Assembly (NCBI RefSeq): GCF_910592395.1
Contig: NC_088314.1
Coordinates: forward strand, 17,953,998-18,017,997
DNA from: Lineus longissimus
Taxonomy: Eukaryota > Nemertea > Pilidiophora > Heteronemertea > Lineidae
Reading direction: 5' to 3'
DNA length: 64,000 nucleotides
The notes below the pieces were generated by a model. That model was given only the letters and a program-made list of their open reading frames with translations, did no database searches and was not told the origin of the DNA. Below, in pieces: positions 8,216 to 53,633 of this stretch (positions are counted from its first letter, which is position 1; each line of letters opens with the position of its first letter). The translations under genes were made by a program, and so were the position numbers.

Positions 8216-11200
8216 TCATTTAAAGTCCACACCAAAGTCGTAATCTTCGTCTTTTTTCCCTCCAAGGGAGGCCATGGCTCCTTCCAACGCATCAGACAAC
8301 TTCCCGGCTATTTTATCTGCAACAGAATAAAACAGGAGTTAGAAACCAACATGTCCTCCAAAATAACTGTGATATTTTGAGCAGAATTCTTCAATTTTTG
8401 TTTTTTAAAATGCAAGGGGTTTCTATGTTTTTTCTTCTATTCCCCAAGAGGTGCTGCTGTGGTCTAGAGGCTCATACATTCTACTAACGGCCCAGAAGAA
8501 CCTGGTTCCGTCCCCACAGTCAGTGTGAGACTTTAGGCAGGTATCTTGGTCTAACTTGCCTTAATCCACCGAGATGAATAAATGGATACTGCTCAGAAAT
8601 GCTCAGACTGCAGTGCCGATTGAGCTTCTCATCTGAGTTCTACTCAAATGGTTCTGAATAGACCAGGATGGAAATGTTATGTCAGATGATAGCCTCTACA
8701 GTGGTTCATATCAGACTATAAATCCAAAACTGTTTACCCAACTCAACACTTTAGTGACATAATCAACTTTTCATTAATCTGTTCTCTGATATGTCAGAAC
8801 ACCTCCTACCTGCTCTTTTCCTTTGCTTCTTCACTTTCTTGGCAGCCTCCTTCTTGGCCTTGCCCCGCTGCAGGTTGCCAGCGTTCACGGGGGCCAACGC
8901 TGGCGCCTCCTTCTTGGCTCGGGTAGACGCACGTGTCTCGCGACCGCTTGGTTTCTTAGAGTCCATGGCGATGGTTACGTCCTTCAACTGAAATGATCAA
9001 CAAGGTTTGTGTTTAACTTGCCCATTCCTACAGCGGTTACCAATTTCGTTTAACAGATCGAAGGCCACTTTGTAGATATTCAAGAAACTGGGGACATTAT
9101 TCCAAATGTTCCAATTTCAATAGATAATTGGTTTATGACACCAAGCTGTCCAACGGTCAGGACGTCATATTTGGGTTTGGCCTTTGTGTCAATTTGGTAG
9201 CTAGTAAGTAACTAAGCGGTCTTTGATCGGTGAAACTTAAGTAATTTCAATAACGTACAGATTTATATAGTGGTATTTAAATCCACTCATCAGAACCTTA
9301 ACAATATCATCAACTGGTCAAGGTCTTTTGGTGTGCTCTTGTAGCAGCAAATGGACACCCTAAAGACTACAGCCAGAGTGTGGATACTTGAACACTAAAT
9401 AATCTTTTCCGCGCACCCCCCATCCCCAACTCTCCTAGTTTTATCGTGGCACTCAAGTACATGTAGCCAGTAGAATATGTCACGTGAATGCCTATCTCAG
9501 CCAAATCCAATACAACAGGGGGAGACAGGCTTTTCCCTGCAATGTGCTTCTCTATGAACAAAGAATAATACTAGTTAAAAGAAGAAGACGGGGCCAGCAT
9601 TTTCACAGTCCAACAAGAATCGATAGAGCTTCAGCATAATGGGAAATGACTACTATCTCACTTTGGCATCAATGACTCTACTTACCTCATTTTCTTCATC
9701 CTCGACCATCTCTTCCTCAGAATCACCATCATCTAGACATTCGATTTCTTCATCAACTATTTCGTCATCCTCCTCTTCCATGACACCAGCCATCGGACCT
9801 TCCGATGTGATGGCCATGTGATTGGCATTAAGAGGCTTACACTCTGAAATGATGGCAGAATTTTAGTGATACCTTATAGGAGCCTCATAGCCTAGTGGTT
9901 AACACTGCTGGCCACCATGCAAAAAGGCCCGGGTTCGATCCCGGGGAGAACCCAGGATTGTATTTCTGGATGAACCGGCGTGGCTTTCAAGGAACTAAAA
10001 TTCCTGGCTCTTCACAACACGTACATTAACGTATGAAATAGTCGAGGGTCTGTCGGATGAGACTAAAAGCCGTGGTCCCTTGTACCTGAGTGTCTATGCC
10101 AGGGCAAGTAAAAGATCCCACATAGGTGGGCAGTAGCCTATAGTGGACTCCATACCTCCGGCAAAAATCCAATAGGGTTACGACACCGGTAATGATGATG
10201 ATGATGAATGATGATGATACCTAGTGGAATCTCCCTTAGCGGATACCACTCTATTAAGGACAACCTCTTCATTGAGGAAACTAGTTTTGTCCAAAAGTGG
10301 TTGCTTCCACTCAATTTGACCTCTCTAATCAGGACACCTCGCTATACAGGACAGCACTTGTCAGTCTTGAAGTTGTCCTTAATAGAGAGGTTCCACTGCT
10401 TGGAGTTTTGAAAGTAGTATTGAAATGCTGAATTCATACCACTTCTATCAATCTACTTAACATGCCTTGCCAGCCAATGGATGGCTCCTGCCATTAAATT
10501 CAACGTCATTGAGAAACCACCCCGGAGTCATGATGTCATTCAAACTGTGAACTTCGAACAAGACAGATGCAAGTCAACCCCAGCCACCCTGATGAAGCCT
10601 AGAGGGGCAGAAACGCGCGTCGGTGGAGCAACACAACAGCCCAACAATAGGGACCGATGGACATTGTTGTAAACTACAGTGACGGTATCCAGTTTTACTT
10701 CTACTATCCTGCTATTAACTTACCACTAAGAGCCTCTTCTTCCTGCTGAATCAGGGAGTCTATATCAAACTCCTTTGCCATGGTTTGCACCAAGGTTGCA
10801 CTGACGTGTGTCAGCTTGCTTGCCTCTTCTGGGGGATGCGTGTAGTACGTGATCCTACCGCTGAAGTTTGGAATAAGAAGTTACGTAAATGAGGGTATAA
10901 ACTACCTACACATACACAAACCATTGGGACAAGCATGAATACGCTTACGGCTTCCCAATGGCAAAGACCCAAGTTTTGGCTGTGATGCCAATATGGATGA
11001 CTGATGATGATGATGATGATGAAGATGATGATGATGACTGATGATGATGATGATGATAATGGGTTTCTAGAGATTAGAAAACAAGTCCTGGCCCAAAAAT
11101 TACCAAAAAAAAAATGCTCAGTTGTAATCTAACGCAAATTTCTCTGAGAAAATACCTTACTGCTTTGTGCCCAAACATTGCCAAGGGGCGTTTTTTGGGT

Positions 11201-13289
11201 TGGTGTAAGTTCAAAGCTTTGATCAATAGGGTACCTGCAAAACAACGGCAGCCGCTATGTGGTGCCGACGGTCACTTGGGTACTGCATTGGTGTGGCAGA
11301 GATGTGATGTTAATAATGTCTGCGGTTTGACATCATTTTGACACATATCTGATTGAATATCGGTGACAGGCTTACCTTGACCAGTCCTGCAGAACAGACC
11401 TAGCGGCCACCTGGATATCAGGAATGCCGCCCTTCTTTAATTTCCCGTGTCGTTGCGCAAGCAGGGATAGAAACTCGTTGGCACTCGTGAAGTTCCCTAT
11501 CCTGTAATGTAGCATGAGCTTCTCCTTGTTGCATCGCCGGAGGATTGCCTCCACTGGAGGGATGGGATCATCTATTGTCTCAATCTGAAGAATAACGGAA
11601 TGGTATTTGTCACCTCATGAAAAAATTATTTCTTTAAATCTCAGATTTCATCCCCGGACAGTAGGTTTACCGGAAACAAACAAGCAGACGCCCTGGCCCA
11701 AAAGGGCTGCAAACAGCAGCAGAAGAAAAAAACACTTCCTACAAAACATCCACAGAGACAGAACTCTCTTGGACAGCCGACTTCGTTACCGAAAACAGAC
11801 TGACGGTCTACCATGCATCTCGAAAATTCTGACACAGAAGAAGACAAAGAAGATTTTCTTCAAGCAGGGATGGAGTAGACCTCACTGCATTATTATGGCA
11901 TTGTGTGTAACTGAACTTTTATTTCCTGAGCCAACAGCGTACCCCTTTAAAGGCCCACTGCAGCGAATTAAAACTTGCTACACGTTGCTACTTACTTTTA
12001 CACAGTTTCTAAGGATCACAGCTGCATCTGAGTCCCCCTTGGCCATCACTATACCAGGACTGTCTAACAGTTTGATGTGTTTGTCTAACAGAACCTCCTG
12101 CATAACCCTGGAAGCGATGAAATAATAAACATGTCAGAAAACAGAGGACGGCAACGGTGTTTGAGTATTCCATGGCCTTGGCCATCAGCTGGGCTATCTG
12201 ACAATTTGATGTGGCAGGCTAACAGAACCTCCAGCATCATCCTGGACGAGAAGGACAATATCCACGTTTGCCTTGTTTGAAAAGAAAACTTCAAACATTA
12301 TGATTTTATATAGTAAGCAAGATCCCACCTTCCAGCCAGAAAAACCTGGAGATTCTAGTCAGGCGGCCCAACTGGTTCAGGGGCGATCAAGGAAACCCTT
12401 AACATCCGGAAGTATAAGCTCTCACTGAATCGATATGGGGACACTACCAACTGCCCTGGATATGGGACAACCTAATATCACCTCATTGTCACCGAGGAAA
12501 CAGTTCGATTACTGCATCAATGCAAAAGTTTTGGAAACTTTATGCTGTCTAAAAGTTTCAAAACTACTTGAGAACATGAAATATCACAGGTTTACAAGAG
12601 ACTTACTTGGTGACCCCAGGAGTATTGCCGACGTTGCACGCTTTAGACCGCTTCAAACTGTTAATGACGCTACTCTTTCCCGTGTTGGGAAACCCAACTA
12701 CGCCGACCATAATCGTCGTCTTCAAGTCTTTATTGCGGCAATAATTGTTGAGAAGTTTCATTAACGTACTCGCACCGAGGCATCGACTGGTTTTCATCAG
12801 TTCGTCCGAGGACAGTTTGATGGGCATTTTGCTCTGGGACTGAAAAATAAGACAGAGGTAAAAAGCTGAACATTGGCTGAGATTATGACTCCCAACATTA
12901 GAAAAATCTGACAAGTGCTTGCAGAAATCCAAGCTGTTGAGAAACCTCATAGACTCAAGATTAACACTGCTGGTTACCACGCAATAGGGACCAGGTTTGA
13001 TCCCGAGGAGAACCCAGGATTGTATTTCTGGATGAACCAGCGTGGCTTTCAAGGAACTAAAATTCTTGACTCTTCACAACAAGTTTGAGGCTCAATATGA
13101 GATAGATTAATGAGGGTCTCTCAGATGAGACTAAAAGCCGTGGTCCCTTGTATACGAGTGTTTGTGCCAGGGCAAGTAAAAGATCCCACATAGGTAGACA
13201 GTAGCCTTAAGTGACCTCTGTATCTTTGGCAAAAATCGGGTTACGACGCCAGTAACAATGATGACGATTATTGAGATGCTTGTCTAATA

Positions 13290-13362
<73 letters not shown>

Positions 13363-16300
13363 CGACGATGACCATGATTTAAAGTCGGTACTCACCAAGT
13401 TCTGTCTCTGCGTCTGGGTTGACGCTTTGAACAGCACTGTGGGGAACTCATTCTTTAAATACTTCAACCACTTTTCAACAATTTCTCGCGGAACCAAATC
13501 GATTTTGTTTAACAAAAGCACCAGTTTCTTTGCGGCTCCAGAGTTTACGACGGCCTCCTCAACTTCAAGACAGCGACTACCGATTGGGTCCCTGGCATCG
13601 AGAACCTCAACAATGACATCAGCGGCATCCACAACCTTTAGAAAAACAAATCGAGTAAACATATCTAAAATGGGTATGAAATGGCCAGGGCCATTGTGCT
13701 CACCTCATGTGGAGGAAAGATGGACAAAGAGCATGGTCTTGTGTCATGTAGTGTTAGGTTTGATGTAGGTCCAAGCAATTACAATTTCCCCAAAATGGCC
13801 AATTTACAGTACATTCGACCTCTGTGACCTTGAAAAGTAGGTCAAATCAAAGAAGACCCGGGTGACACATTGAATGGTTGTTAGAATTAGATGTACCTAT
13901 GATATAAAATTGGTGCCAATCGGGCAAGTCATTACTAGGAATAATGGCATTTTGAAGAATTTAGGATTTGGCCCCCTCCCTGGAGGCCAAACGGCAAATC
14001 AGATCGCACCAAACTTCGGTACCTGAGATCACCTGACCAAGGGGTACATGTGTACTTAATTTGTGATCAATAGTCATTGCAGTTAAGAAACGTGCCATAG
14101 TTACGGCCTGACGGCGAATTTACGCCATTTGACCTCTGTGACCTTGACAAGAAGGTCAAATTAAAAACCTGTGTGACATATACTGTATGGTGGTTAGATG
14201 TACCCATGATATCAAATTGGTGGCAATCGGGCAAGAAGTTAAGGAATAATCACATTTTTAAGGTTTTTGGATTTTGCCCCCTGGTGGTCAAGTGGTGAAT
14301 CATATTGGACCAAACTTTGGTCCCTGAGATCACCTGACTAAGGGGTAAATGTGTACCAAATTTGGTATCAATAGTCATTGCAGTTTAGAAACGTGCCATC
14401 GTTACATCCTAACGGCTAATTTACACCATTTGACCTCTGTGACCTTGAAAAGGAGGTCAAATCAAAAACCCGGAGGATATATGATGCACCTTTGCTAGAA
14501 GTACCTACCATATTTTTTTCAAAATTTCCCGACTACTATTAAGGGAGATATTGCATATTTTCACTTTTAACGTTTGTCCCCCTGGTGGCCAAACCATGAA
14601 ACGAATCGGACCGAAACTTGGTCTCCCAGGTGTCATTACATAAGGGTACATGTGTACCAAGTTTCAACTCAATAGCTCTAACAGTTACGAAACGTGCCCT
14701 GCTAACGGACGACGGACGACGACGACGACGACGACGACGGACGACGGACGCCACGGTATGGGATAAGCTCACCTCTGCTAAGAGGTGAGCTAACAAGGAA
14801 GTTCTTTCATTCTATTATAATTTAAAATATTTTTCACAGATCCGGCCTAAGCTGATCTCTTGTCACTAACCTGTAATAGTGTGATCACAATAGTAATGTT
14901 ACACAGCCCCGGGCAGCCGGTGTTACAAGTGACCAGCTTTCGTTGACACCGTGAATGAACATTGGTCAGGCCTACCTTGGAGATAATCTAGGGTTGCACA
15001 CCACTATCTTTACCTTTTTGAACTCTTTAAAATAAGCCTTTCTGGAAGTTTCAATGTCATCACTGGCGCCAAATTCCATCGCCGTTGCTCCTTGTGTAAC
15101 AGCTTGTTTCTTCTCAAATGCCGCTGATCGTTTCTGTGCATCAGTGACGAGACTGCTCAGACTCCTCTTCTTCTCGAGCAGACGGACTCGGTCTTTCTTT
15201 CGTTTTTCTCTCATTCTTTCACGCTCTGCTTCAATCTGCGAAACAAGTTTAAACATTTATAACCACAAAATCAAAATCAAACAGATTCCGATTTTGTGAT
15301 TACCTATTTGTTTGCATTTCTGCTGAAATTTCCTTTCCAATGACACCAAATTCATATCAAATACTACTTATCAAAAGACAACCGATTGCCAAGTTTGGAT
15401 TTGAAATCTTCAAAGAAAGACCAAACTGATGATTCAGAATCAAAGGTTAAGTCTTGAAGACTTTATGTACAGAGTCTCTAACCATTTGCGTTTAACAGGA
15501 CATCATAAGGGAGGGAATTACCCCTGCTAGAAAGGAAATGTCGATCTTCCCATTTTCTTACCCTATTCTTCCTCTCTTCGGCCTCCTTCAAGATCTGATC
15601 CTTGAACGGATAACTGTTAGGGATACCAGGATCCTTCTTCTCTGTAAATAAACAACAAAATATTTTTGGAGGGGGAAGGGGAGTACCTGTCCTGATGTCT
15701 CATTAGAAAAAAATCCTGACACAAAATATTGCTCCTTTTCAACTTTCCCGAATCTCGCCACAATATGGGCGTCTGCCCCAAAAATCCTGGCTGTTATTTG
15801 GTCTGTTTTGTGGCCCTATACACTCACTTTTGGGGTGCGGATTTTTCTTTGCGTCCCTTCTAAGTTTCCTATTGTGTTCTCGGACCTAAAATAATGTAAA
15901 GAATTTTTAATAACATCACATATCATTTAGGCCCTACTCCTCATCGAGAGCTTCATCAGCCGACTGTCACTATACTATGATATGAGTAGGCTCAGCCTAC
16001 CTGCAAACATGATGACGGATGTGATTAATACACTACACTATGCTACGGTATCACCATGATGACCATCATGCGATGCGATTATTTACATCACGTCCACGAT
16101 TTAACACATGAAGAAGACTGCCATGTATTGATGTACGTTACCGGCGTATCTGGCAAAGGGCCTATCAAACACAGATCACCGAGATTGGTGGTGCAATGCT
16201 TACTTAGTTATCATTATTATGCATAGCACTGACCACTGTACTGTACTGGGCTTGCATGCATGTGTATCAGTGTATTGTGTGTGTGTGTCTTTTACTGACG

Positions 16301-16472
16301 ACTTTAGACTCACCTTTTTCTGTATTTTGTACTTATTCCGGCAGGTCTGCCGCTTGCTCGTCTTCTCTGAAAGGTACAATGTAAATATTACTGCAATATA
16401 CATTACATTAAACATTTCAAATAGTTGTTGTTGAGGCGAAAAGGGAAACTTACTGCCAAACCCTTTCGGCAT
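8216..16472 (-). CDS. GNL3L: Nucleostemin-family GTPase, GNL3/GNL3L type, 13 coding exons, 599 aa
   Basis: Coding exons in transcript order: 16472-16454, 16366-16314, 15885-15828, 15641-15562, 15235-15014, 13635-13396, 12839-12607, 12107-11996, 11584-11376, 10860-10724, 9843-9686, 8987-8810, 8316-8216. All junctions are GT-AG and phases agree (1800 nt). The N-terminus is basic ([20 protein letters not shown]), as in the nucleolar targeting region of the family, then a lysine/arginine-rich coiled-coil-like stretch. The GTPase is circularly permuted: DARDP at about 157-161, NKID (G4) at 187-190, GFPNTGKSS (G1) at 273-281, DSPG (G3) at 317-320, so all key motifs are intact. An acidic segment (exon 11) and a basic tail follow. 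The DSPG motif, TK(V)MQEV and [12 protein letters not shown]-like end resemble GNL3L; the last residues ([10 protein letters not shown]) resemble GNL3. It is probably the single pre-duplication gene, acting in ribosome biogenesis in the nucleolus. The symbol is by closest motif match. Confidence 0.93.
8451..8740 (+). mobile_element. tRNA-derived SINE, family 2
   Basis: GTGGTCTAGAGGCTCA resembles an A box and CTGGTTCCGTCCCC a B box. The body shares GAAATGCTCAG and TATCAGACTATAAATCC-type words with the element at 50874. It lies in the last intron of the GNL3L gene (between exons 12 and 13). Confidence 0.6.
9879..10216 (+). mobile_element. tRNA-derived SINE, family 1, with (GAT)n tail
   Basis: The tRNA-like head has A box TAGCCTAGTGGTTAACA and B box GGGTTCGATCCC. 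The body contains GATGAACCGGCGTGGCTTTC, and the copy ends in a GATGAT repeat. It lies in intron 10 of GNL3L (transcript order) and is followed directly by a pogo-like MITE. Confidence 0.8.
10221..10398 (+). mobile_element. pogo/Tigger-like MITE, copy 2
   Basis: The left end is slightly degraded (CTAGTGGAATCTCCCTTAGC); the right end is GAGAGGTTCCACTG. It abuts the SINE at 9879 and lies in a GNL3L intron. Confidence 0.75.
11640..11880 (-). repeat. Dispersed repeat shared with 56200-56500
   Basis: The reverse complement of this stretch matches the plus strand near 56215-56300, sharing for example TTTTCGGTAACGAAGTC- and CTGTCC(A/T)AGAGAGTT-like words and a CTTCTTCTT-rich side. It is probably a SINE-type element. 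It lies in GNL3L intron 8 and carries no coding exon. Confidence 0.5.
12160..12245 (-). pseudogene. Decayed duplicate of GNL3L exon 8
   Basis: On the minus strand this stretch parallels real exon 8 (11996-12107). It has a CCAG acceptor remnant, then a GGAGGTTCTGTTAGC-type segment, an ACATCAAA(T/C)TGT-type segment and ATGGCCAAGG. It lacks about 5 nt just after the position of the G3 aspartate-serine-proline, so the frame is broken and the G3 glycine is lost. It lies between exons 7 and 8. It appears to be a local tandem duplication that has decayed, and including it would frameshift the protein. Confidence 0.7.
12943..13380 (+). mobile_element. SINE family 1 copy with very long (GAT)n tail
   Basis: The tRNA-like head is degraded (GGTTTGATCCCG as B box). 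The body matches the copy at 9879, and the 3' tail runs into about 28 GAT repeats (13288-13372). It lies in GNL3L intron 6, and the tail ends about 25 nt from the exon 6 donor at 13395. Confidence 0.8.
13690..14795. mobile_element. Dispersed repeat with three ~300-bp internal units and hairpin end
   Basis: The word TTGACCTCTGTGACCTTGA recurs near 13815, 14130 and 14431. Each unit also carries a CATGTGTAC...CAATAG(T/C) motif and an AAACGTGCC motif. The right end has a (GAC)n run (14706-14752) and then a strong hairpin (GCTCACCTC, loop, GAGGTGAGC). GTGCTCACCTC also occurs at the left end near 13698. This is a common style of non-autonomous element in marine invertebrates, but the superfamily is not clear. 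It lies in GNL3L intron 5. Confidence 0.6.
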
Positions 16473-24100: not shown

Positions 24101-27100
24101 CTGATCTACATCACAACTTTTGCTGAACCCGCCGCCTGGCTCTAACAAGCCAGTTGCTAGCCTGATTAGGTAATCAAGTTGTCAAACACATAATTGGCTA
24201 TATCTTCAAAATGGATGGAGCTAATTGCATTTGGTTTTCTGTATTGTATAAAGTGTTAGGTACACTTTTGAAATCGTCTTACAGCAGAAAATGGCAAAAA
24301 ACCTTGATATATGGCCTTTAATATAAAGGTGTTCTGATTGGTGAGGTCAAATTGAATGGAGGCAACAACTTTGGGACCAAAACTAGTGTCCTTAATAGAG
24401 AGGTTGTCCATAATAGAGAGTCGTCCGCTATGACAGGTTCTTCTGTACCTCTACTTCGTGCTGTCGCATGTTATATAATGAGATCCAGGTGAGCTATGGT
24501 CCATAGGTCATTTCATTTGCTATTTGTTCTTAGGTAATCACACATTTAGCATACAGTTTATACATCTCTACATGTCAACTTTGTTCTTTCAGATTCGTAC
24601 TTCTAGCTGCCGCATTGTCATTGTTGACACCTGTCCTATTCCCGTTTGTAAGTATAAAAACTCATCAAGGTTTGTTGTGTCCCTAGTAGGTAGCGCAGTG
24701 GAAGAGAGTCGGCCTCATGATCAGGAGGTCGTGGGTTCGACTCCCGGCCGAGTCACTGCTTAGTACTCCTACTGGTCGAGTTCAAGTGAGCACCTTCTGG
24801 GGTTGCTCCTTGAAACCCCTGATTGATTTCTGTGGAGACCGGGGTAATAATATGATATCCCCAAGCGCTTTGAGCGGCCAGTTGATGGTTGGATACTGCG
24901 CTATATAAGACTCGTATTATTATATTATATATAGTAAAATTCCACTCGAACCACCAGAGAAAAATCAGCAGCTGAAAGTATTTTTGATGCAGTTTATTTT
25001 TATCTTGCAAATAGCTTCCATAACTTTCACAGATATGTGGGGAAAGCGACATAAAGTTTTGAAATATTACTCCGTCCTCGTCTTGCCTAGAGGGCACATA
25101 AGGCTTTCATCATCAGTTTCCACCCTGTTAGGTCGGCAGCCTGTCCATGGATAATTCCCTAGGTCAGACCAGGCTGATTCATCTCCTCTCTACCATCCGT
25201 GCCAGGTCACTTTTAGACAGCCCTCGGTTTTTTCCCACCGGCCGTCCATCGGTGGTCTGTCCTTGGGAGTGTGCCCAGTGGGGTGAGTGGCACTATGCAC
25301 TGTTGTTCCAGCCAACGCCAGCATCGTCCTTTGAACCATTTTAGCAATTGGTGTGGAAATACCATATTAGCTTCTTGAAAATTTCCCGTCTGAAGCCGAC
25401 TGGACCAAATGGCTTTGTGTGAGATTTTGTTCATAGTCCTTTCTTGTATTTTCAGAATCAGCCTGTGATTTTTTGTGGATTTCTTGTCTTTGAGGCCTGC
25501 GTCGGGATATTCTGGCCATCGCTGAGCACGATGAGAGGCAAATATGTCCCTGAAGAGAGTAAGTTGATATTATATTTCATCCTTTTATGTGTCAAGGGGT
25601 CAAAAGATCCTTTGGATTGTATTTTTGGTCTGAAAAAGGGCATGTTTTGAAGTAAAGTAATGAAGAGATGCTATTTCTTTTATTGTCGACTGTTATTGGG
25701 CTTTTATTATGATTGTACAAAAAAATTGTTGCGCAAGTGTACAAATTCTAACAAAATATTCTTTGAAAGGAAAACAAGAAGAAATTTAGAAAGTTTTCTT
25801 TTAATTTCGTGAATCTCAAAAATAAAGTGTTGTGTAAAGTTGGTAGTTTACAGTACTGTATTGAAATCCTGTCTAATGTTCAAACTGATGAATGGTCTGG
25901 CATCAAGTGTAATTTTGTCAACAAAATCATTATTGTTTGTTGTGACCCTGAGTACACACGTCAAACCAAGGCACACTACAACTGTACACAGTTTTTGGTA
26001 TCCAGGAGGTGCTGCCATCTGTCAGCATCTGCTATAACTACAGTATTTAATCTCATAGTGTGGTGCTTATTATTTAGAGAGCTGGAAAAAGGGAAGGGTG
26101 ATGGTCTGGTAGAAATTTCAATGGGTATATAACCTTGTACTGTACTGTTTTGAGCCCTCTATTGGCAGTGCAAGTTATTTTTGTTGGATTATCGTGAGGG
26201 CCTAAAGGGTATAGAACCTAGGAATGATTTAGTTGAATTTTAACAGTCTATCGTGAGGATTTTATATAAAGGGCAAAAAGAGCCTTGTGATGGTTTGGTG
26301 AAATTTTACCGGGTCATATTGAAGGTCTCATCATATTTGCCACACAATTAACCTTTTTTAATGGCAGTTTCTTCATTTTGCACTAGAAGTTAATAAAAGG
26401 GTTAAAGGATGGGTACCAAAGGTCAAAGGTCGCATGAAATGACACTGTCCTTTTTTCCTATGTCCTGAGTGGCGTTCGATCATTATGTCACCACAGATCA
26501 GGGCAGAAACACTCAACAAATAATGACCTGACTGTCCCAGGCAGCTACACACCAGTAGCCATGGCAACTGGGATCTTGAGAATGGCACTTCTATTGAATG
26601 AAAGCGACAATCCTGTCGTCCATGCCAACACAACGTGTCAAAGAAACTTGTACATTTAAGTGAGGATATTCACATCAGTGACAATTTGATTTCATCAAAC
26701 TTAAAATGAATTCCGATCAAAATTAAGTTCCGTCTTACTTGACAAATCATGTATACTTTGTTGTACATTCACATGTACAAATGTACAGCATTTCTCGTCA
26801 TACTAGAATTGGCATGGACCCAGTCAATTTTGAAAATCTTCTTGATGTCTAAGAGAAGCAGGGACTTAGAAAGCTTATCAATTATCCTCTAATGCGTAAT
26901 GTAATTGCTTTTTATTTCTGTCATTGCAGCCCGGGCCACGATAATGAATTTCTTCCGAGTTCCTTTGAATTTGATTGTGGTGGTTATTTTGGTTCAGGTA
27001 AGACCAGTTGTGGTTATTATACGCCCGCTCCAGAGCGTATTATGGTATGGCGCTCGCTGTCCGTCTGTCCATTAACTTTTCATTGTCCGCGCAATTACTG

Positions 27101-32552: not shown

Positions 32553-33983
32553 TGTGTTAGGTTTATATCCATGACCTGTCAAATGCTCCTTCCATTTTCA
32601 GCAACATTCCAAAATGTCTCTTTTTAATATATATTCAAGGCTTTCATTCTCGTATAAGCATCAAATTTGGAACACTTTCACTAAAAACACAAATGGGGTA
32701 GTGAAAACTATGGATCGGGAGGTACTTCAAGTTACTGATAGATGGCAGTGCGTATGAGTTTTTAAGCAACACAGTAGCTTTTCAATCACTGGCATAACAT
32801 TTGAGAAATGTACTATCTTTTTGTGCATTTTGCTGTACATCTCTTTCTGCATAATGTAGCAAATGAAGAGAGTCTTAAGTCAGACTCAGAATTCAAACAC
32901 TTTTCAAGAAGTGTTGAGTTGGACTCAGGAGTCAAAAATCGGATGCGATTCTGAAGGATACTCATCCAGAACTTATTTGCAATGAGGAACCTGCAGAACT
33001 ACAAATCCAGATGGCAGCACCAGTACTAAAAGGTACACTTCCAGTGCATTTTCCATTAAAGTTAAGTTTTGCCCTACTCAGTGTAATGTATATGCAAAAT
33101 GTATGTGTGTGCCTGTATGCCCATCAAGATTGACGAAATCATATTTGTGTTAATTTTCATAGATTTGTTTGTCTTATGTTTTGTTAACATGTGAAGTTTA
33201 TTTTATGATGCACATCACTTTATACTATTAAATGTTATACATGTTTGATGATGTATTGATGTGACAAATTCTGCAAAAATAGAAATAAATAGCTCTAAAT
33301 TTCAACAATCTTCATTTATCTGTTGGCCTACATGTCATCTGATGATATTGATTCTTGACCTTTGAGGAGAGGGACTCTCATTGCAGTTTGTGGAGTGGCA
33401 GATTCCTGGTGAGGTTTGTTGAGCCAAAGTGTCCTGTTATGGTACAGAGGTGTCTACGTCCAACTTTTTTTATAGCACAGCTTTGGATATTGCCCAGTTG
33501 TTGATCGATATGTATCGTAGAGATAGTCAATCCAGGGACTGCAACACAGCCTGGAGCCTGGATTCTCCTTTTTATGTCAGCTTAATTGCTGTGGAGAGCC
33601 TGGCCATTTGAGCCTGTTCCAGCAGTACCATGTCTCCTAAAATTGTCACAACCAGTCTATGTCTCTGGCATACTGGCCTCCATGTGCTGATTGTCACAAC
33701 CAGGTTATCATATTTGGACAAGGACAACACGAGATACTTCTTTAAAAGACACTTTAATAAACTTTAGTTAACACTGTGAAAGAGCATTTGTTAGTCCCAC
33801 TCTAAGGATAATCTAGTGTTGTGAAAACCACTACCTTTTGGTAAATGTGATCTAGTCACATTCCTGACTTCAACTCAGTACCATTGACCAGAACGATATG
33901 AAGGACACTTTTCATGCATCAAAGTTATCTCTTGAATAGTGCATATCACAGATCAGTCATTTTCAAATCATTCCGAAACTTTG

Positions 33984-35683
33984 TTAAGAAATAGCCTCCT
34001 TCCGTTCCTTGGCTTCTTCAAGTTTTCTCTTTTCATCCTCGAATCGTTTTCTCTCGCTTTCTACGACAGAGTCCATGTCCTGAAAATATAAAGAATACAG
34101 TGAATTGCAAAATTTTCCAGGGCACCTTTCCCAGGACAGGCCACCTCGGCAAGTTGGAAAGCCTGCCGTATTCTCGGCAAGCTTGGGAATCAATTTTCCA
34201 GGGTGAAACTCCACATCAAAGTCAAAGCATAAGAAGGGTAAATCACATAACAGGTCATTATAAAAGATTCCTTCTTCATGATTTCATGACTGTATGATTT
34301 TATTATAAGGTTCAAATTATACAAACTCAAATTGCAGTAAGTAGACATGCCTCTCTGCCGTACTGAACTTCAAGCAGTATTGCCCCTGTAGCCACTCCCG
34401 TGCATTGTCTGGAAGCGGAGCAATGGCAACACATTGAGGATCGAGATGCCTTTCTCCTTCTGCCGAAAATCAGATTTGATTTTCTTAAAAGTAATCGTGT
34501 AAACCCCTTTATTTTCGTGGCCCTATATGTTCCCAAAAACATAATTTTCCAATTCTGCGTTCATTTATTTCCACAAATGACTGCATATTCCAATGATAAA
34601 ACGGAAACACATTCAATTGTATCCTCTTGTGAAAATGTGGAAATAACCGGTTTACGGTATCTAGTTTGTTTACACTTTATCTTCTCCTTTCTGTTGACAT
34701 TTGTATGAAGCTTAACGCAAACATATAATTTGTCAATGACCATTTTCCAATTTCTTAATAACCTATGGGCAACGAAAAAAATTAATCAATATTTCATCAA
34801 ATAGGAAAATCATATATTGAGTTTTCTTCTGAGATAAGAGATGATGGAGCAAAAAATATGGATGCAATTGTGATGTTTTGACATTTGCAAAGAATTTTTA
34901 ATATCGAGCGGAAAATATCATGAGTTGATCTTTGGACAAATGTCAAAAGAAGGAGGGACTGTCTTACAGGAGATTACAGACAACAGGTAATATTGAAATT
35001 TTATGTTTTGCATTTGGTAAAAGGGATGTTTATGATAAAGATGACAATGATATTGCCTTTTTTTAAAGCGCTTTTCCATGTTTTTCTGTTCAAAGTACTT
35101 TTGGATACCATACTATAACTATATATTGCCCCGGTCCCACAGAAATCAATCGGGGGTTCAAGGCACAACCAGAAGGTGCTTACTTGAACTTGACCAGTAG
35201 CGGAACAATGCACTGACCAGGCCAGGAGTCGAACCCACGACCTCTTGATCATGAGGCCGACTTTCTTCCACTGCACAACCGCTGCATGACGATGTCTAAT
35301 TGCGCTATCCCCTTCACACATTTTCATTCAAAACGTTTGTAAAACGGTTTTTAGTGGGGAAATTCCTTGGTCTACAATACTTAATCTATCATTTTGAGAA
35401 CGAACTTAGTCAGAAGCATGAAGAAAAATGTCTTCTCACCTCCAGAGGTTTGTAGAACATCATTCAAAACGTTTGTAAAACGGTTTTTAGTGGGGAAATT
35501 CCTTGGTCTACAATATTTAATCTATCATTTTGAGAACGAACTTAGTCAGAGGCATGAAGAAAAATGTCTTCTCACCTCCAAAGGTTTGTAGAACGTGTGA
35601 ACAACCTGAGCACCAGCAAACATGGTGAGGAGAGCTGCTCCGGTAAATTTGAGATATGTCGGCCACGTTACACCAGCTGGCAT
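33984..35683 (-). CDS. UQCC6: BRAWNIN / UQCC6 (C12orf73 homologue), complex III assembly microprotein, 67 aa
   Basis: Coding exons are 35683-35576 and 34079-33984 (stop TAA at 33984-33986). The donor is GAG|GTGAG and the acceptor TTTTCAG|GAC; both are phase 0. The N-terminus reads MPAGVTWPTYLKFTGAALLT and continues MFAGAQVVHTFYKP, closely matching the start of human C12orf73/BRAWNIN (MPAG, TYLK, MCAGAEVVH, YYRP). The C-terminal half is a charged helix rich in E, K and R. The human protein is about 71 aa, so length agrees. In vertebrates it is an inner-membrane mitochondrial peptide needed for assembly of respiratory complex III. The single hydrophobic stretch at residues 12-28 would be the membrane segment. 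The start codon lies 40 nt after the SMIM4 stop in the same exon, so translation probably occurs from a shared mRNA. The ATG has A at -3. A 136-bp tandem duplication covers the donor site. Confidence 0.93.
34600..35290. other. BRAWNIN intron content
   Basis: The intron (34080-35575) is AT-rich. It holds the SINE at 35102-35290 and the duplicated donor segment, and I see no other exon in it. Confidence 0.5.
35102..35290 (-). mobile_element. tRNA-derived SINE, family 3, minus-strand copy
   Basis: The reverse complement gives GTGCAGTGGAAGAAAGTCGG and GTGGGTTCGACTCCTGGCC, matching the family 3 copy at 24683. It lies in the BRAWNIN intron. Confidence 0.72.
35325..35596. repeat. 136-bp tandem duplication spanning the BRAWNIN donor site
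   Basis: The segment starting CATTCAAAACGTTTGTAAAA occurs at 35325 and again at 35461. Each copy carries a minus-strand TTCTACAAACCT plus a donor GAG|GTGAG. The real donor is at 35575; the second donor, at about 35439, follows a 20-nt relic of exon end. Confidence 0.85.
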
Positions 35684-35723
35684 CTTGCCTCACGCAATAC
35701 AGTAGATGAAACTAAACCAATCT

Positions 35724-36550
35724 TCAATTCAGCTGTTCACTTCTGATGATTTTCTCAGCTTGCTTTTTCTTGTAAGTATTATCTGAAAAGATATTGAAAC
35801 GTCTTTCAGGCAAGAAGTAGTATTGGATTTAAAAGGATAACTGAACAGCCCTATGAAATGTAAATCACTTGGTAAGGACTTGTGGCCCCCATGTCCTAGA
35901 TGCAAGGCAAGGCCACATCAACAGAGGATCTCGTTTACAGGCTGATGGCATAATTGACCTTTTTGAAAATGCTTGTTATGTTTGGGCACTAAACACTTGT
36001 GCGCTTCACCTGGAACAAAGGGTCACACTGGCTTATGGCATTTACCGAAGTCAACTTCTAAGGCCTTCTGACGTGTTCTGAGTGAGAGCATGTATTCGAA
36101 TTGTTTTGCCTCTGATATTCATCTTCTTCGAAAAGGCGTAGGCGTAGGTGATATACCGCCAGTAAGTTTTCGGGTAAAAATGGGATACCTGACATTATGT
36201 ACTCAACCGGTTTAGTTAAATCAGCCCAACCTAAATTTCAGAGCATCCTTGTGTAGGGCATACTGTCTGCAGTATAGTCACCGAGTATTGACTATTGTAT
36301 TATGAATGATGATGCATACATACATACATACATACATAGGCCTACATACAGTGCATTTCAAGGTGAATACACGTAGCAGACAGCAATTTTGATGCTTACA
36401 AAAGTTGACTTCTCCGGCGTGCCAATTGATCATAGAAAATTCTAGAGCTGCTCCAAGGAAGAAGAAGAATGGCATAAACCTATAAAGGCCAAATCTTTCC
36501 TTTCCTGGCCACTTTTGGAGGAGTTTTTGTATATTTGAACTTCGCCGCAT
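35724..36550 (-). CDS. SMIM4: SMIM4 / UQCC5, complex III assembly microprotein, 69 aa
   Basis: Coding exons are 36550-36400 and 35782-35724 (stop TGA at 35724-35726). The donor is T|GTAAGC; the acceptor is TTTTCAG|AT, giving a split Tyr codon. The protein contains QKWPGKERFGLYRFMPFFFF, then LGAALEFSMI, then GEVNFYNTYKKKQAEK. Human SMIM4 has the same order (a VPGKQRFGIYRFLPFFF-type core, a short membrane helix, a TFYDVYRRK-type end) and is 70 aa long. The family acts at the mitochondrial inner membrane in cytochrome b/complex III assembly. The hydrophobic span at about residues 25-41 is the single membrane helix. The last exon continues without a splice site into the BRAWNIN start codon 40 nt downstream, so both proteins are expected on one transcript. 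The -3 base is G, a moderate start context. Both internal ATGs (residues 26 and 40) are in the SMIM4 frame. Confidence 0.93.
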
Positions 36551-36560
36551 TTCGAAATTT

Positions 36561-36590
36561 TCAAGACATGGGCGCAGCCATCTTGCTAAT
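36561..36590 (-). promoter_or_regulatory. Upstream ORF and YY1-like motif in the SMIM4-BRAWNIN leader
   Basis: On the minus strand, AAGATGGCTGC at 36584-36574 resembles a YY1 initiator-type motif. If transcription starts upstream, its ATG (36581) opens a 6-codon reading frame (MAAPMS) ending in TGA at 36561-36563, just before the SMIM4 start. Such motifs often lie at transcription starts of housekeeping and mitochondrial genes, so it may mark the start itself. Confidence 0.45.
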
Positions 36591-36965
36591 TATATAACCT
36601 TAGTCAGCCGTGTCGGAGTCGTTGATTGGTCGAAACATTAAATTGATTATATTTTAAGCCAATCAGATTGATTCTTTTGAAATGCTCAGTGTTTAGATGA
36701 ACACAGACTTTTAAATGGACAAAGCCTTCACACCTTGAGATTTTGCTTAGATTTAACGGGCTGCATGTGCGAAGATTGGAATTCAATTGTCACTAGGAGA
36801 AACAGGTACATCTATACGTTGTAATGGTGTAAACTTTTTGAAAATCGGGCTCATAATTTTGCGTGAGTTGGTGTCCCAAGATCAGCAATTTTTGGCCTGC
36901 ATCTCTTGCCTGGGCTGGTGCATGTGCATGTAATCTGATTCAATGCATGCTGTGCTGTGGGCTAT

Positions 36966-39931: not shown

Positions 39932-40269
39932 CAGAAGAACATCCCTTAGCAGATACCTCTCTATTAAGGACAACCTCTCTATTAAGGACAACCTCTCTAT
40001 TAAGGACAACCTCTCTATTACGGACAACCTCTCTATTAAGGACAACCTCTCTATTAAGGACAACCTCTATTAAGGACAACCTCTCTATTAAGGACAATCT
40101 CTCTATTAAGGACAACCTCTCTATTAAGGACAACCTCTCTATTAAGGACACAAGTTTTGGTCCCGAGTTTGTTGTTTCCATTCAATTTGACCTCTCTAAC
40201 CAGGACACCTCACTATTAAGGACAGCACTTGTCAGTCCTTAGGGTGTCCTTATTAGAGAGGTTTTACTG
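39932..40269 (+). mobile_element. pogo/Tigger-like MITE with amplified 18-bp core
   Basis: Ends are CAGAAGAACATCCC and TTTTACTG, with TA on both sides. Inside, CTCTCTATTAAGGACAAC repeats about ten times (39956-40150), whereas typical copies have one or two. The growth explains the element's larger size and the open frame on the minus strand. Confidence 0.8.
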
Positions 40270-44180: not shown

Positions 44181-44360
44181 CAGTAGAACCTCTCTATTAA
44201 GGCACCCTCGGGACTGACAAGTCTTGTCCTTAAATGATAGAGAGGTATCCTGATTAGAGAGGTCAAATTGAATCGAAAAGGCCATTTGGGACCAAAACAA
44301 GTGTCCTTAATAGAGAGTTTGTCCTTAATAGAGAGTTGTCCTCTAGGGGAGGTTCCACTG
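44181..44360 (-). mobile_element. pogo/Tigger-like MITE, reverse orientation
   Basis: CAGTAGAACCTCTCTATTAA to GGGGAGGTTCCACTG with TA on both sides. It sits 33 bp from another copy in the opposite orientation. Confidence 0.82.
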
Positions 44361-44393
44361 TATGTATTTTCAATCTACATGTATGTACATGTA

Positions 44394-48422: not shown

Positions 48423-51400
48423 ATGGACCATCAAAGCCCTTATTTGTAAGTAACCTTGATCTATTCCATTATCCGTAAAGCTTTAAATAGTCGTACATGC
48501 TGCAAATTGAACAAAGTATACACAAAATGTCAAATGGTATTGTTGTAAAACATTCGAGTTGTAAAACACTCGATTTACTCATGGTAATGTATATGTATAT
48601 GTAAGCGCTTTGTCTTAGTCATCTTGACCCGCAATGTTTTGAGATCGCTAAATAGCTCGATAGTGGTGACGCAAACTCATGAGAGTCAGGATGGGTCTCG
48701 GTCTAAAGTCACTTGACCGATGGGTCGGAATGCCGGAAACTGCAGTCATGGGCATGTTACCATCTTTGAGCAAGAAGAAAAAAGGCTGCTGCCGTAACAC
48801 AGTATGACAGAGTACTATTGGATGACTGTAAACTCTTATCCTGTTCCAGTATGCCCCGGATCAAACAGGAGCCCGTGGACTTCCACCCAGGTTCCGTGTA
48901 CGATCTCCCACAGATCAAACAGGAGCCCGTGGACTTCCACCCAGGTTCCGTGTATGATCTCCCACAGATCAAACAGGAGCCTGTGGACTTCCACCCAGGT
49001 TCCGTGTACGATATCCCACAGATCAAACAGGAGCCCGTGGACTTCCACCCAGGTTCCGTGTACGATCTCCCACAGATCAAACAGGAGTCCGTGGACTTCC
49101 ATCCAAGGTTCCGTGTACGATCTCCCAGTGCCACCCATCCAGCCACCACCCCCTGCCAAACCTTACATTGATATCTTCTCTTTCAGTATGCCCCAGATCA
49201 AACAGGATCCCGTGGACTTCCACCCAGGTTCAGTGTACGACCTCCCAGTGCCACCCATCCAGCCTCCACCACCTGCCAAACCTTACATTGATATCTTCTC
49301 TTTCAGTATGCCCCAGATCAAACAGGAGCCCGTGGACTTCCACCCAGGTTCTGTGTACGATCTCCCAGTGCCACCCATCCAGCCTCAACCACCTGCCAAA
49401 CCTTACATTGATATATTCTCTTTCAGTATGCCCCAGATCAAACAGGAGCCCGTGGACTTCCACCCAGGTTCCGTGTACGACCTCCCAGTCCCACCCATCC
49501 AGCCTCCACCACCTGCCAAACCTTACATACGACCTCCCAGTGCCACCCATCCAGCCTCCTCCACCTGCCAAACCTTACATTGATATCTTCTCTTTCAGTA
49601 TGCCCCAGATCAAACAGGAGCCCGTGGACTTCCACCCAGGTTCCGTGTACGACCTCCCAGTGCCACCCATCCAGCCACCACCACCTGCCAAACCAAAGAG
49701 GACCAGGAAGAGAAAAGCTGAGTAAGTTTCAAACTGTAATTCACCAAGTCAGAAGTGTTCTTCTTGCCTTCATCTTCTAACAGGTCCAATCCAGAGTTGC
49801 CAAAAGATGTTGCCAAAGTGGTCTTCATCTTCAGCGTTCAGTATGCTAGAGGTGCAAGTTTGACAGGCAGTCCATTTTCGGTAACACAGTTGGCAGTCTT
49901 TACATCACATTGCAGTCTCCAATGTCTTTGGTTGTTTTCAAATCAGAGGTATCCAAATTCTTGATGAATTGAAAGGCATGAAAGAGTAAAAAAGAATATG
50001 CTTGATCTAAGACTTTTGTTTATTTTGGTGTAAGGCACTTTGGCCAGGGTTCAACCTTCGCATAACCATTATTGCTAAATGCCTCTGCCACAGAAAGGGT
50101 AGATTTGATGCTTGACTGGTGGAGGCTTTAATTTCACTGGCCATTCGGGAATGTCTGGCATTTTGGTCAAGAAAGAGAGATAATCCTCTTGGATAATCCT
50201 CTTGGAGATAATCCTCTTTATCAGCCCTGGCACTAGTGGCAGAGTCATCAGGTCCAATGAACCTAACTTTCAGATCTGATTCAAAAGACTACCTCACCAA
50301 GGGTTTGATTTGTTGATTCATACATAGTTTGATATACCTCGATATAAAGCTGCCACTCTCGCACTTCCTTCTGGCTTCCGTGTCCACAGGGAAGAGAAGT
50401 TCCGGTCTGTGAAGCACATCACAGTGTTTATCCATTTACGATGACCGTTGATATCTTTCATCATCATCATTATTGTTTCAGTGTGGCGGGGAATGGGGAC
50501 CATGGCGGGAAACCACCGGCCAAGACGAAGGTGAAACAAGAGAAGCTTACCGGTCCGGACGGTATGCCGGTCAAGAAGAAGCGAGACCGGTTTAACGGCA
50601 TGCCGGAGGAGGAGGTGATAGCGCGCGGATTACCGGATCATCTGGCTCCTAATCTCGACATCGTCATCGTTGGTATCAACCCAGGCCTGATGGCGGCGTA
50701 TGTGGGCCATCATTATGCTGGGCCAGGAAATCATTTCTGTAAGTCTGTTTCATCGGTTTGACACTTACATTGTATGTGTAGTTTGATATACACAACTCCT
50801 TTGACAACATTGGGTTTCTAGCACAGCTCATGGTATGGAGCCGAGTATGTTATTGATAGTGTGGCTTTTTAGGAGCCACTGTCGCCCAGTGATTCAGACT
50901 CCTAGCTAGCTGTCAAGAGGTCCCTGGTTCGAACCTCACACTCGGTGGGTATTGGTCAGAAATGCTCAGGTTGTAGCTCTGAAAGAGTAGCTTGTCTGTG
51001 TTCTGCGGAAAAGAGTCAGGATACATCTTGTAGACCAGGGTTAAAGTTGAAGTTGGGTGACGTCTCTGCGGCAGTTGATATCGGACTATGAACCCAAACT
51101 TGAACATTATTTAATGCCAGCTGCTCTTTAAAATATCCCCCCCCTTCCATGTAATTTTCAAGTTACCTGATTGCTGATTAAAGTCTAAGTTGGGTGACGT
51201 CTCTGCGGCAGTTGATATCAGACTATGAACCCAAACTTGAACATTATTTAATGCCAGCTGCTCTTTAAAATATCCCCCCCCCTTTCCGTGTAATTTTCGA
51301 GTTACCCGATTGCTGATTCATGCCAGTGCCTGGTTAGTTGTCTGATTGACTGTGACCAAAGATGCTGTCAGGAAGGAAGGGACTAGGCCTGCCCTTTCTC

Positions 51401-53633
51401 CATGCTACAAACCGACTTCTTAATTGACCATTTCCCCATTATAACCCTCCGTTTATTTCAGGGAAATGTTTGTATCTCTCTGGCCTGATCCCTGAACCCA
51501 TGACGGCGTATGACGATTATAAACTGATGAAATGTGGCATCGGATTTACGAACATTGTGGCCAGGACGACCAAGGGTAGTGCGGACTTGACGAGAAAAGA
51601 GATCAAGGAGGGTGGAGAAATACTCATTGAGAAACTACGCGAATATAAACCAAAAATAGCTGTTTTCAATGGAAAAGGTAAAATCAATTTTCATTAAACT
51701 TGTGATGCAGGCAAGATTTGGTGTCTAAGGGGTGTGGGCTAAGCCAGATGGTTTTCAATGAAGAAGATCCGGGGTTAAAGTGTGCAAAACTTTCCATCGG
51801 AGCGGGTCATCTTATGCTTTATTAGTCCCGCACATCGGTGAAGAAGACATACTCTAAAGTTGCATGCAGTGGCTGCGGCTGAAATTAGGAAAGGCCAAGA
51901 ATCAGAAAAGTTCTGTTTCAAATACCGGTATATAAATTCGGCTCCTCTTTTCAGGCATTTATGAAGTTTTCTGTGGCCACAAGAACTTCTATATCGGCAA
52001 GCAACCAGAACCACTTCCAGGCACTGATATAGTAAGTATAGTTTAAGGTATATCTGAGGACTCGGGAAGTTTCTGATGTTTTTCCAATTTTGTTTCAACT
52101 CGTGGCATAATTCATGATTGTTAGCACCCATAACTTCTGGTGTGGGAAACCATCCACACCTCCAGAGTGCACCCAATTGCACCCTATGATCTGAGGTCAT
52201 AGAGAACAACTCATGAGTCATAATGCTGTTCCCAGCCTCTACCCGGTGCGTTTACGAAAGCATTGATCAGCGTGAATGATCACAGCACGGAGGACTCTCT
52301 TAGCTCTTTCCTGCTAGCGTTCAAGGTCAAGTGAGTGCTCAGTAACTTCTCCTTAGCATCTCCCAAAGATTCTGCGATGATGAAATGCTGTCCAGGGAAA
52401 TGTGTTTTAAGAATCGAACTCCGCACTTGTCTTCTGTCAGTTTCTCTAAGATTATTTGTTGTGTTATTTCAGGTTGTGTACGTTATGCCTTCCTCCAGCG
52501 CCCGATGCTCACAGTTGCCTCGCGCCGTCGACAAGGTGCCTTTCTACGCGTCTTTGAAGAAGCTCAGGGACTACCTCCGCGGCGATGTGGACACCCTCGA
52601 CGAATCCGAAGTCTGCTTCCCCGACCTTGAACTCAAGGTCAAGGTCAAAGCGGAGAAACAGGAACCAGTCGATAACGGTGACAATGCTACTCAGAACAAT
52701 CAGTCAGTGCCTCATGGGAACTTTAATAACATGCCGATGGTAAAAGCGGAGTCTGGATACGACCAACAGTGTTTCGGTATGATGCCACAACATCATCCGA
52801 ATAATGCTCATCATATGGGAATGCCACCTCAGAACTATCAATTCCCGCCACAACAGAATCATTTCGGTCAGCAGGGTCAACATTGTATGCCTGGCGGGAA
52901 AGATGGTGGACCGTCGTGTACGGAGCTTATGCCCATGCGGCCAATCAAACAGGAGCCTGGACAGAATTACTGTAATCAAACTGTACGCTCTGTGATGAGT
53001 TCGGAAGGGAGTTTCCCGTCTGTTACGAGTCCACTGTTGTATCAAATGGCCAACATGGCGCCACCATATCCTTACAACTTCGACCAGAACCCACCGCCGT
53101 TCTCCCAGGCGCCGAGCAACGCATCGAACACATATCCTTCCTCAAGTCAGTCTTGCCAACCGCAGAATTCAGCCTTCCTGACATTCGGGCAGAATTCGTC
53201 ACAAGATGGACATTATCCCGGCATGCCTGTGGCTCCTGCTGCAGTCCCTGGCCCACCTCAGCCTAACCAAGGATACAATCATAGCTCCCCCTCCAACGAG
53301 ATGGGTCAGGCGTTCGTCAATCTCAATCAGAATTATCACCCACCGCAAGGAAGTCCTCAGAGTTCGGGTTACAATGCTACCCCACCTCCCCCACAGGGTA
53401 GTCCTAATGCGAATAGCATGGGTCACAGCCCGAACAGAGGTCGTAGCCCGGGACCTGGCGGATACATGCAGAATAACATGTATACTTCGGGCCAGGCGTC
53501 TAATCCCAATGGCTTACAAAATGCTGCGGAAAACGTCGGTCACAGCCCTCGATCTCAGAGCCCACGATACATAGGGAGCCCGGCTAATAGCGGTAACGCT
53601 GCTATGGGCGCGGGAAGCTACCCGCCGTGTTAG
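48423..53633 (+). CDS. TDG: Thymine DNA glycosylase (TDG), 6 coding exons, about 618 aa
   Basis: Coding exons: 48423-48445, 49599-49721, 50482-50738, 51462-51677, 51955-52031, 52473-53633 (stop TAG). Phases join to 1857 nt. A 5' UTR segment starts at the acceptor before 48393. The glycosylase core holds [29 protein letters not shown] (active-site GINPG at about 113-117, with the catalytic Asn at 115), [35 protein letters not shown] and VMPSSSARC (237-243, the DNA-intercalating loop). These are the defining parts of TDG, which removes T or U from G mismatches and 5-formyl/carboxylcytosine in the nucleus. Exon 2 encodes [11 protein letters not shown], a proline-rich stretch and the basic KRTRKRK. 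The tail of about 320 residues is rich in Q, N, P, S and M and contains VKAE, VKAE and IKQE motifs (sumoylation consensus). The human protein is 410 aa; the extra length is the tail. Exon 2 is preceded by decoy copies with acceptors. Confidence 0.92.
48850..49598 (+). repeat. Serial copies of TDG exon 2 with its acceptor (54-bp and 120-bp units)
   Basis: Five 54-bp units (48851-49120) each encode P(Q/R)IKQE(P/S)[11 protein letters not shown]-type peptide. They are followed by 120-bp units with acceptor TTCTCTTTCAG|TATG at 49187, 49307 and 49427, then a 172-bp step to the real acceptor at 49599. A one-base insertion near 49103 and a short partial copy near 49528 put the array in three different frames. 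Read from the acceptors at 48850 or at 49187-49427, translation stops before exon 3 (at 49171 or 49583). Only the acceptor at 49598/49599 keeps the TDG frame. Confidence 0.88.
50874..51107 (+). mobile_element. tRNA-derived SINE, family 2
   Basis: The head has TCGCCCAGTGATTCAGA and B box TGGTTCGAACCTC. The body words GAAATGCTCAG and GACTATGAACCCAAACTTG match the copy at 8451. It lies in TDG intron 3. Confidence 0.7.
51042..51325 (+). repeat. ~137-bp tandem duplication covering a SINE 3' end
   Basis: AGTTGGGTGACGTCTCTGCG to CGATTGCTGATT occurs twice (51049 and 51188), with C-run lengths of 8 and 9. It duplicates the SINE tail and its flank in TDG intron 3. Confidence 0.8.

Follow-up and report, generated by a model that had tools for sequence, protein, structure and literature searches.

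Gene structure of the SMIM4–BRAWNIN locus

We analysed a window of 64,000 nucleotides (the whole stretch of DNA under study) from Lineus longissimus, a nemertean with a published genome size of 391 Mb, for the most part assembled into 19 chromosomal molecules (PMC8593623, in part). On the minus strand of this window lie two small open reading frames (ORFs), SMIM4/UQCC5 first and BRAWNIN/UQCC6 second, in separate frames (Table 1). Both ORFs are complete and in order, and they belong to one three-exon structure with a shared middle exon. The SMIM4 ORF codes for 69 residues and is joined through the donor TTTT/GTAAGC and the acceptor TTTTCAG/ATA. The BRAWNIN ORF codes for 67 residues, with the donor GAG/GTGAGA and the acceptor TTTTCAG/GAC; its ATG lies 40 nucleotides downstream of the SMIM4 stop, in frame +1.

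Family membership of both proteins was clear from Pfam. SMIM4 matched PF15114 (UPF0640) at 1.6e-34 over residues 3–66 (118 bits versus a curated cut-off of 27; profile positions 2–65 of 67), and BRAWNIN matched PF14990 (DUF4516) at 1.1e-18 over residues 1–44 (67 bits versus a cut-off of 27; profile positions 1–44 of 46). The homologues carry matching names, small integral membrane protein 4 and sloth 1 in the case of SMIM4 and ubiquinol-cytochrome c reductase complex assembly factor 6 in that of BRAWNIN. The MPAGV start of BRAWNIN was invariant across the 8 aligned rows, and each protein has one hydrophobic stretch of 19 residues. An earlier sequence-only reading of this DNA had named both families and given coordinates for the gene; the Pfam matches confirmed the names, and translation and splice joins showed every coordinate that it gave to be correct. 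Among solved structures, up to E = 1, SMIM4 had no match and BRAWNIN had five chance-level ones (0.9–0.98, T-complex protein 1 zeta). Nothing was found in the window by Rfam at gathering thresholds or by a tRNA scan. The locus shares the following features with the sloth1–sloth2 type: both families, SMIM4 first, different frames, a short spacer and no intron required between the ORFs.

Table 1. Features of the SMIM4–BRAWNIN gene and of its surroundings in the window
Feature	Position	Strand	Basis
SMIM4/UQCC5 coding exon 1, ATG 36550	36400..36550	-	translation, splice join, Pfam UPF0640
Intron 1, 617 bp, GT-AG, phase 1 after VNF	35783..36399	-	
Shared exon: SMIM4 C-terminus and stop, spacer, BRAWNIN N-terminus	35576..35782	-	
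SMIM4 coding portion of shared exon, stop TGA 35726-35724	35724..35782	-	
Spacer, 40 nt, between SMIM4 stop and BRAWNIN ATG	35723-35684	-	
BRAWNIN/UQCC6 coding part 1, ATG 35683, context ggcaagATGcc	35576..35683	-	Pfam DUF4516
Intron 2, 1496 bp, GT-AG, after PLE	34080..35575	-	
BRAWNIN coding part 2, stop TAA 33986-33984	33984..34079	-	
Upstream ORF MAAPMS, six codons, ATG 36581 in CAAGATGGCTGC, stop 10 nt before SMIM4 ATG	36561..36581	-	
Promoter-like stretch	36574..36665	-	motif matches only
Extended CCAAT, two matches	36659-36665, 36623-36629	-	motif match
TATATAA	starts at 36596	-	motif match
YY1-like AAGATGGC	starts at 36584	-	motif match
ATTAAA, candidate poly(A) signal past BRAWNIN stop	33753..33758	-	motif match only
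GNL3 (nucleostemin), residues 8-599 of Lineus longissimus P0034, 11 GT-AG introns	8219..16364	-	
TDG (thymine DNA glycosylase) catalytic-domain exons	50636..52583	+	
MFS_5 transporter ORFs between GNL3 and dicistron	20732-22765	+	
THAP-domain ORF between GNL3 and dicistron	23765-24031	-	

Homologues and intron positions

Protein searches returned 26 homologues of SMIM4, 13 of which were retrieved, and 7 of BRAWNIN; the best identities were 70% and 64%, respectively. No Lineus longissimus record of either microprotein was among the matches, though Lineus GNL3 is present in the protein collection; genes of this kind may therefore be missed by annotation. An NCBI name was attached to 10 of the 26 SMIM4 matches versus 1 of the 7 BRAWNIN matches, in searches that were not equally sensitive, and second cistrons may be under-annotated.

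The intron positions recur in the homologues. Apparent read-through into an intron after VNF (VNF|CK), as here, was observed in 4 of the 13 SMIM4 homologues (P0025, P0027, P0028 and P0032), and an apparent break after PLE (PLE|VRM), also as here, in one of the seven BRAWNIN homologues (P0007). The BRAWNIN homologue P0002 and the SMIM4 homologue P0011 each come from a single 1043-base contig of the same source. This is probably one and the same contig, small enough for a transcript or a compact gene.

A comparison of the SMIM4 and BRAWNIN profiles (14 and 8 rows, both shallow) detected no homology between the two families (probability 0.1%). The fly paper describes sloth1 and sloth2 as distant paralogues, 27% similar (PMC9681215, in part). 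Pattern searches of other collections yielded 36 matches to the BRAWNIN alignment in viral contigs and 30 matches to the SMIM4 alignment in contigs of prokaryote genomes; no relative was confirmed in either, as expected for such collections.

Splice sites around the shared exon

Splice sites were scored with a matrix built from the 11 GNL3 introns mapped in the same window, and acceptors were ranked among the 3838 AGs of this strand. The SMIM4 acceptor at 35782 scored 9.6 (99.4th percentile), the acceptor of BRAWNIN intron 2 stood at the 98.3rd percentile and the BRAWNIN donor scored 10.0. The sequence-only reading had also claimed that the 40 nucleotides of the spacer hold no splice acceptor. 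This proved weaker than claimed: there are four AGs, with exon starts that would fall at 35721, 35711, 35688 and 35683, and the matrix cannot exclude them, because real GNL3 acceptors score as low as -6.8 (range -6.8 to 8.8, leave-one-out). The best of the four (35721) scores 3.4, against 9.6 for the acceptor at 35782.

Intron 2 has features of its own. A tandem duplication of 136 bp (35323–35594, 132 of 136 positions identical) has placed in the intron a copy of the 5' splice site together with the 19 bases of the shared exon that precede it. The duplicated donor (exon end at 35440) scores the same as the first; we rejected it as a splice site, since the BRAWNIN frame hits a stop before reaching it. 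Farther on, a stretch at 35150–35290 (GTCGTGGGTTCGACTCC) resembles a tRNA-derived repeat by eye (the tRNA scan gave no gene there), and a reading frame like that of this repeat recurs near 24690–24905.

Expression of the two cistrons

Three promoter-like patterns match in the 170 bp that precede the SMIM4 ATG: extended CCAAT twice (36 matches in the window), the TATA pattern as TATATAA (79 in the window) and the YY1-like AAGATGGC (4 in the window). These are motif matches only. None of the three patterns occurs in intron 1 or in 35684–35782. Likewise, neither AATAAA nor ATTAAA occurs in the spacer.

Position +4 is C at both starts, whereas position -3 is G at the SMIM4 start (ttcgaaATGcg) and A at the BRAWNIN start (ggcaagATGcc). 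The ATGs between the two starts lie at mRNA offsets 0, 75 and 117, all of them in frame with SMIM4. The sequence-only reading was right on this point within the SMIM4 region; it overlooked the ATGs upstream of SMIM4. One of these, at 36581, opens an upstream ORF of six codons and stands in a strong context (A at -3, G at +4). Its surroundings, CAAGATGGCTGC, are YY1/TISU-like, with one mismatch to the TISU consensus. The TISU-like 12-mer was found twice in the window against 0.44 expected (at least two in 8 of 100 shuffles), and the shorter core CAAGATGGC three times against 0.48 expected (at least three in 0 of 100 shuffles).

We consider it highly probable that the locus represents, in Lineus longissimus, the ancient UQCC5(SMIM4)–UQCC6(BRAWNIN) dicistronic gene (sloth1–sloth2 in the fly), expressed from one mRNA by leaky scanning. 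One promoter just upstream of SMIM4 would give one mRNA ending near the ATTAAA at 33758. Ribosomes that miss the SMIM4 AUG, perhaps very near the cap, would keep scanning, pass two more in-frame AUGs (T at -3) and initiate at the BRAWNIN AUG; both partners of a complex III assembly module would thereby be kept co-expressed. Short leaders favour leaky scanning; transcription from the TATA-like element would give a leader of some 15 nucleotides, without the upstream ORF. The proposal of the sequence-only reading that an ancestral two-protein mRNA is retained here is consistent with the shared exon, with the published order and frames, with the recurring introns and with promoter-like motifs lying mainly before SMIM4; the single mRNA itself we infer from sequence.

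The following observations weigh against this interpretation. The SMIM4 donor (36400, TTTGTAAGC) scores 2.0, under all 11 leave-one-out GNL3 donors (3.2 to 11.9), and the exon join was accepted because of the conserved protein that it yields. The promoter motifs were selected after inspection of the sequence. Intron 1 and the spacer each hold one plain CCAAT, and initiator-like matches number two in intron 1 and one upstream of SMIM4. Intron 2 holds three AATAAA and two ATTAAA motifs, and a shorter transcript could therefore end there. The SMIM4 start is not clearly weak. The lack of out-of-frame ATGs in the SMIM4 coding sequence is not significant, the probability of finding none being 0.26, 0.18 and 0.57 under three codon models. 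Finally, the upstream ORF could leave both cistrons short of ribosomes. We dropped the idea of a scanning signature in the form of selection against out-of-frame ATGs, as their absence is expected by chance in 18–57% of recodings.

The initiator-like matches and the plain CCAAT of intron 1, together with a second strong acceptor-like site inside it (36009, score 9.9), would suit an arrangement in which intron 1 or the shared exon contains a separate promoter or first exon for BRAWNIN, so that the two genes overlap and are expressed mostly from separate mRNAs. We regard this as very improbable: the extended CCAAT, YY1-like and TATA motifs are all placed before SMIM4, the spacer is only 40 nucleotides long, and in the fly the start sites predict one transcript only (PMC9681215, in part).

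The upstream ORF bears on how a single mRNA would be translated, and in its strong context may alter the mechanism. With a transcript start upstream of 36581 the mRNA would include this ORF, which would keep ribosomes away from SMIM4, and late reinitiation would yield some of the BRAWNIN; ribosomes that reinitiate after so short an ORF would tend to pass over SMIM4, to the benefit of BRAWNIN. BRAWNIN might even be made mainly by this route: the 40S subunit would resume scanning, pass the SMIM4 AUG 10 nucleotides on before it is recharged, and start about 260 nucleotides downstream. The strength of the upstream ATG, its position within a TISU-like 12-mer and the 10 nucleotides between its stop and the SMIM4 ATG are in keeping with such a route. 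We nonetheless find it rather doubtful as the main source of BRAWNIN, as TATATAA at 36596 would put the transcript start near 36565, past the upstream ATG, and as the fly reporters support leaky scanning (PMC9681215, in part). Leaky scanning was rated above reinitiation because of this support in the fly; each of the two would supply BRAWNIN.

Genes in the neighbourhood

The dicistron lies between GNL3 and TDG, and all three lie within 46 kb. The GNL3 exon composite was 96% identical over 100% to P0034 (guanine nucleotide-binding protein-like 3 homolog), the next match being at 63%, and P0034 mapped back with exact agreement in the residues checked around each of the 11 junctions; by this match the DNA comes from Lineus longissimus (Nemertea, Lophotrochozoa) or from a very close relative. 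Among the PDB matches of the composite, guanine nucleotide-binding protein-like 3 (1.6e-65) ranked above nucleolar GTP-binding protein 2 and NUG1. The TDG composite matched chains of G/T mismatch-specific thymine DNA glycosylase at 2.6e-55, and the gene probably spans about 48.8–53.6 kb.

The interval between GNL3 and the dicistron also holds ORFs of the MFS_5 family, which are MFSD5-like, and one ORF with a THAP domain. No STAB, NT5DC or GLT8D gene turned up in the window, either among the 20 ORFs given to Pfam or by eye.

Some other features of the window were noted. In the TDG-like region, a minisatellite of 54- and 120-bp units (48860–49627) reads as repeated peptide units (9 matches, three frames, two variants). 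The IKQEP in it is similar to a motif for SUMO attachment, and sumoylation of TDG is well known. At 804–1052 there is a C-terminal kinase exon, p38-MAPK-like by eye, whose weak Pkinase match (0.0016) falls under the curated cut-off. Tandem arrays of an 18-bp unit like ACCTCTCTATTAAGGACA are scattered over the window (39955–40150, 44302–44452, 47064–47101 and others).

Separation of the human genes

The sequence-only reading noted that the human genes are on separate chromosomes but offered no reason; the neighbours GNL3 and TDG point to one. The Lineus window was compared with published mammalian gene lists, none of which is stated to be in map order and all of which come from sources available in part. 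For human 3p21.1, one list reads STAB1, NT5DC2, PBRM1, GNL3, GLT8D1, SPCS1 (PMC4101866). SMIM4 is listed after STAB1 and before PBRM1 in a second source, with NT5DC2 in a separate column (PMC6906185), and is placed in the same 3p21.1 interval by an alphabetical list (PMC5545733). For cattle chromosome 5, one list reads STAB2, NT5DC3, HSP90B1, C5H12orf73, TDG, GLT8D2, HCFC2, NFYB (PMC10818672), and another gives the same run as far as GLT8D2 (PMC8888742). A list for the human chromosome 12 interval reads NT5DC3, HSP90B1, GLT8D2, HCFC2, NFYB, TDG, without C12orf73 (PMC11061283).

Going by these lists, the two mammalian blocks have three gene pairs in common in the same order (STAB1/2, NT5DC2/3 and GLT8D1/2) and look like copies of one block. 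SMIM4 and GNL3 are inside one of them, and BRAWNIN and TDG inside the other. Human SMIM4 lies between NT5DC2 and PBRM1; except for the list of the human chromosome 12 interval, the lists agree with the gene order known for these regions. Human SMIM4 and GNL3 presumably have the same orientation, and C12orf73 and TDG presumably diverge, as in the Lineus window. Genes that are split between two vertebrate blocks (GNL3, SMIM4–BRAWNIN and TDG) are linked in the unduplicated Lineus genome. The linkage is imperfect, as the MFS_5 and THAP genes stand in the Lineus interval but are absent from the lists of the vertebrate blocks.

We think it probable that human SMIM4 and BRAWNIN are the halves of one dicistron, copied by the early vertebrate genome duplication and reduced by complementary loss of cistrons, and that the Lineus window keeps the unduplicated GNL3–[SMIM4–BRAWNIN]–TDG arrangement. 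An early vertebrate would have doubled its whole genome, the ancestral block included; one copy of the block would then have lost BRAWNIN and TDG, and the other SMIM4 and GNL3. SMIM4 would so have stayed with GNL3 (STAB1–NT5DC2 to GLT8D1) and BRAWNIN with TDG (STAB2–NT5DC3 to GLT8D2). The report of the joined form in the lamprey (PMC9681215, in part) fits this account.

A translocation that moved one cistron independently of any genome duplication would agree with the fact that no duplicated, unreduced copy was seen, and in the available passages Bosch et al. go no further than stating that the ORFs 'became unlinked' (PMC9681215). However, SMIM4 and BRAWNIN occupy corresponding intervals of the blocks bounded by STAB1–NT5DC2/GLT8D1 and STAB2–NT5DC3/GLT8D2, and the Lineus neighbours GNL3 and TDG are split between the same two intervals; we therefore hold a translocation to be unlikely. 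We found no published genome-duplication account of the SMIM4/BRAWNIN split in a search mostly of open-access literature, and the available passages of PMC9681215 and PMC8719881 do not mention genome duplication. No precedent for a dicistronic gene split by genome duplication was found, as judged by titles and the starts of abstracts.

If the account is true, a eukaryotic two-protein mRNA was split up through genome duplication and the complementary loss of its cistrons. The Lineus neighbours would then turn 'became unlinked' into a specific event, a genome duplication followed by opposite losses. The new part of our observations is this neighbourhood, which may explain the human arrangement.

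Comparison with known two-protein systems

Two-protein mRNAs are rare in animals, and the architecture described here is already known. Bosch et al. (2022), in the passages available, identified fly sloth1 and sloth2 as orthologues of SMIM4 and C12orf73/BRAWNIN, expressed from one transcript by the evidence of cDNA and reverse-transcription PCR, and stated a similar architecture for choanoflagellate, sea squirt and lamprey (PMC9681215). Consistent with the sequence-only reading, which had named the bicistronic fly transcript, though none of the three other cases, and the separate human genes, the same passages place the two genes of jawed vertebrates on different chromosomes. Citing others, they also describe the protein levels of the partners as mutually dependent. 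Lineus is a new case and a lophotrochozoan one, a group not named in those passages.

The Drosophila pair sloth1–sloth2 (CG32736–CG42308) is like that of Lineus in families, order, separate frames and short spacer. The spacer is 40 nucleotides in Lineus versus 5 in the fly, and the SMIM4 start of Lineus has G at -3, whereas the sloth1 start, ACACATG, is called non-optimal (PMC9681215, in part). The Lineus gene has an upstream ORF. Transcript and translation were tested in the fly; in Lineus both are predicted from the sequence. Human SMIM4/UQCC5 (chromosome 3) and C12orf73/BRAWNIN/UQCC6 (chromosome 12) belong to the same families and are complex III assembly factors (PMC10199267 and PMC9681215, both in part); unlike the Lineus pair, they are separate genes on different chromosomes. 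Several small-ORF proteins are likewise made from one mRNA by pri/tal and Sarcolamban, which belong to other families (PMC9681215, in part), and human STREMI is a further case of more than one protein per mRNA, encoded by an upstream ORF and again of another family (PMC13303939, in part). With a lophotrochozoan copy now standing beside those of fly, tunicate, lamprey and choanoflagellate, the joined form of SMIM4 and BRAWNIN is likely to be ancestral for animals.

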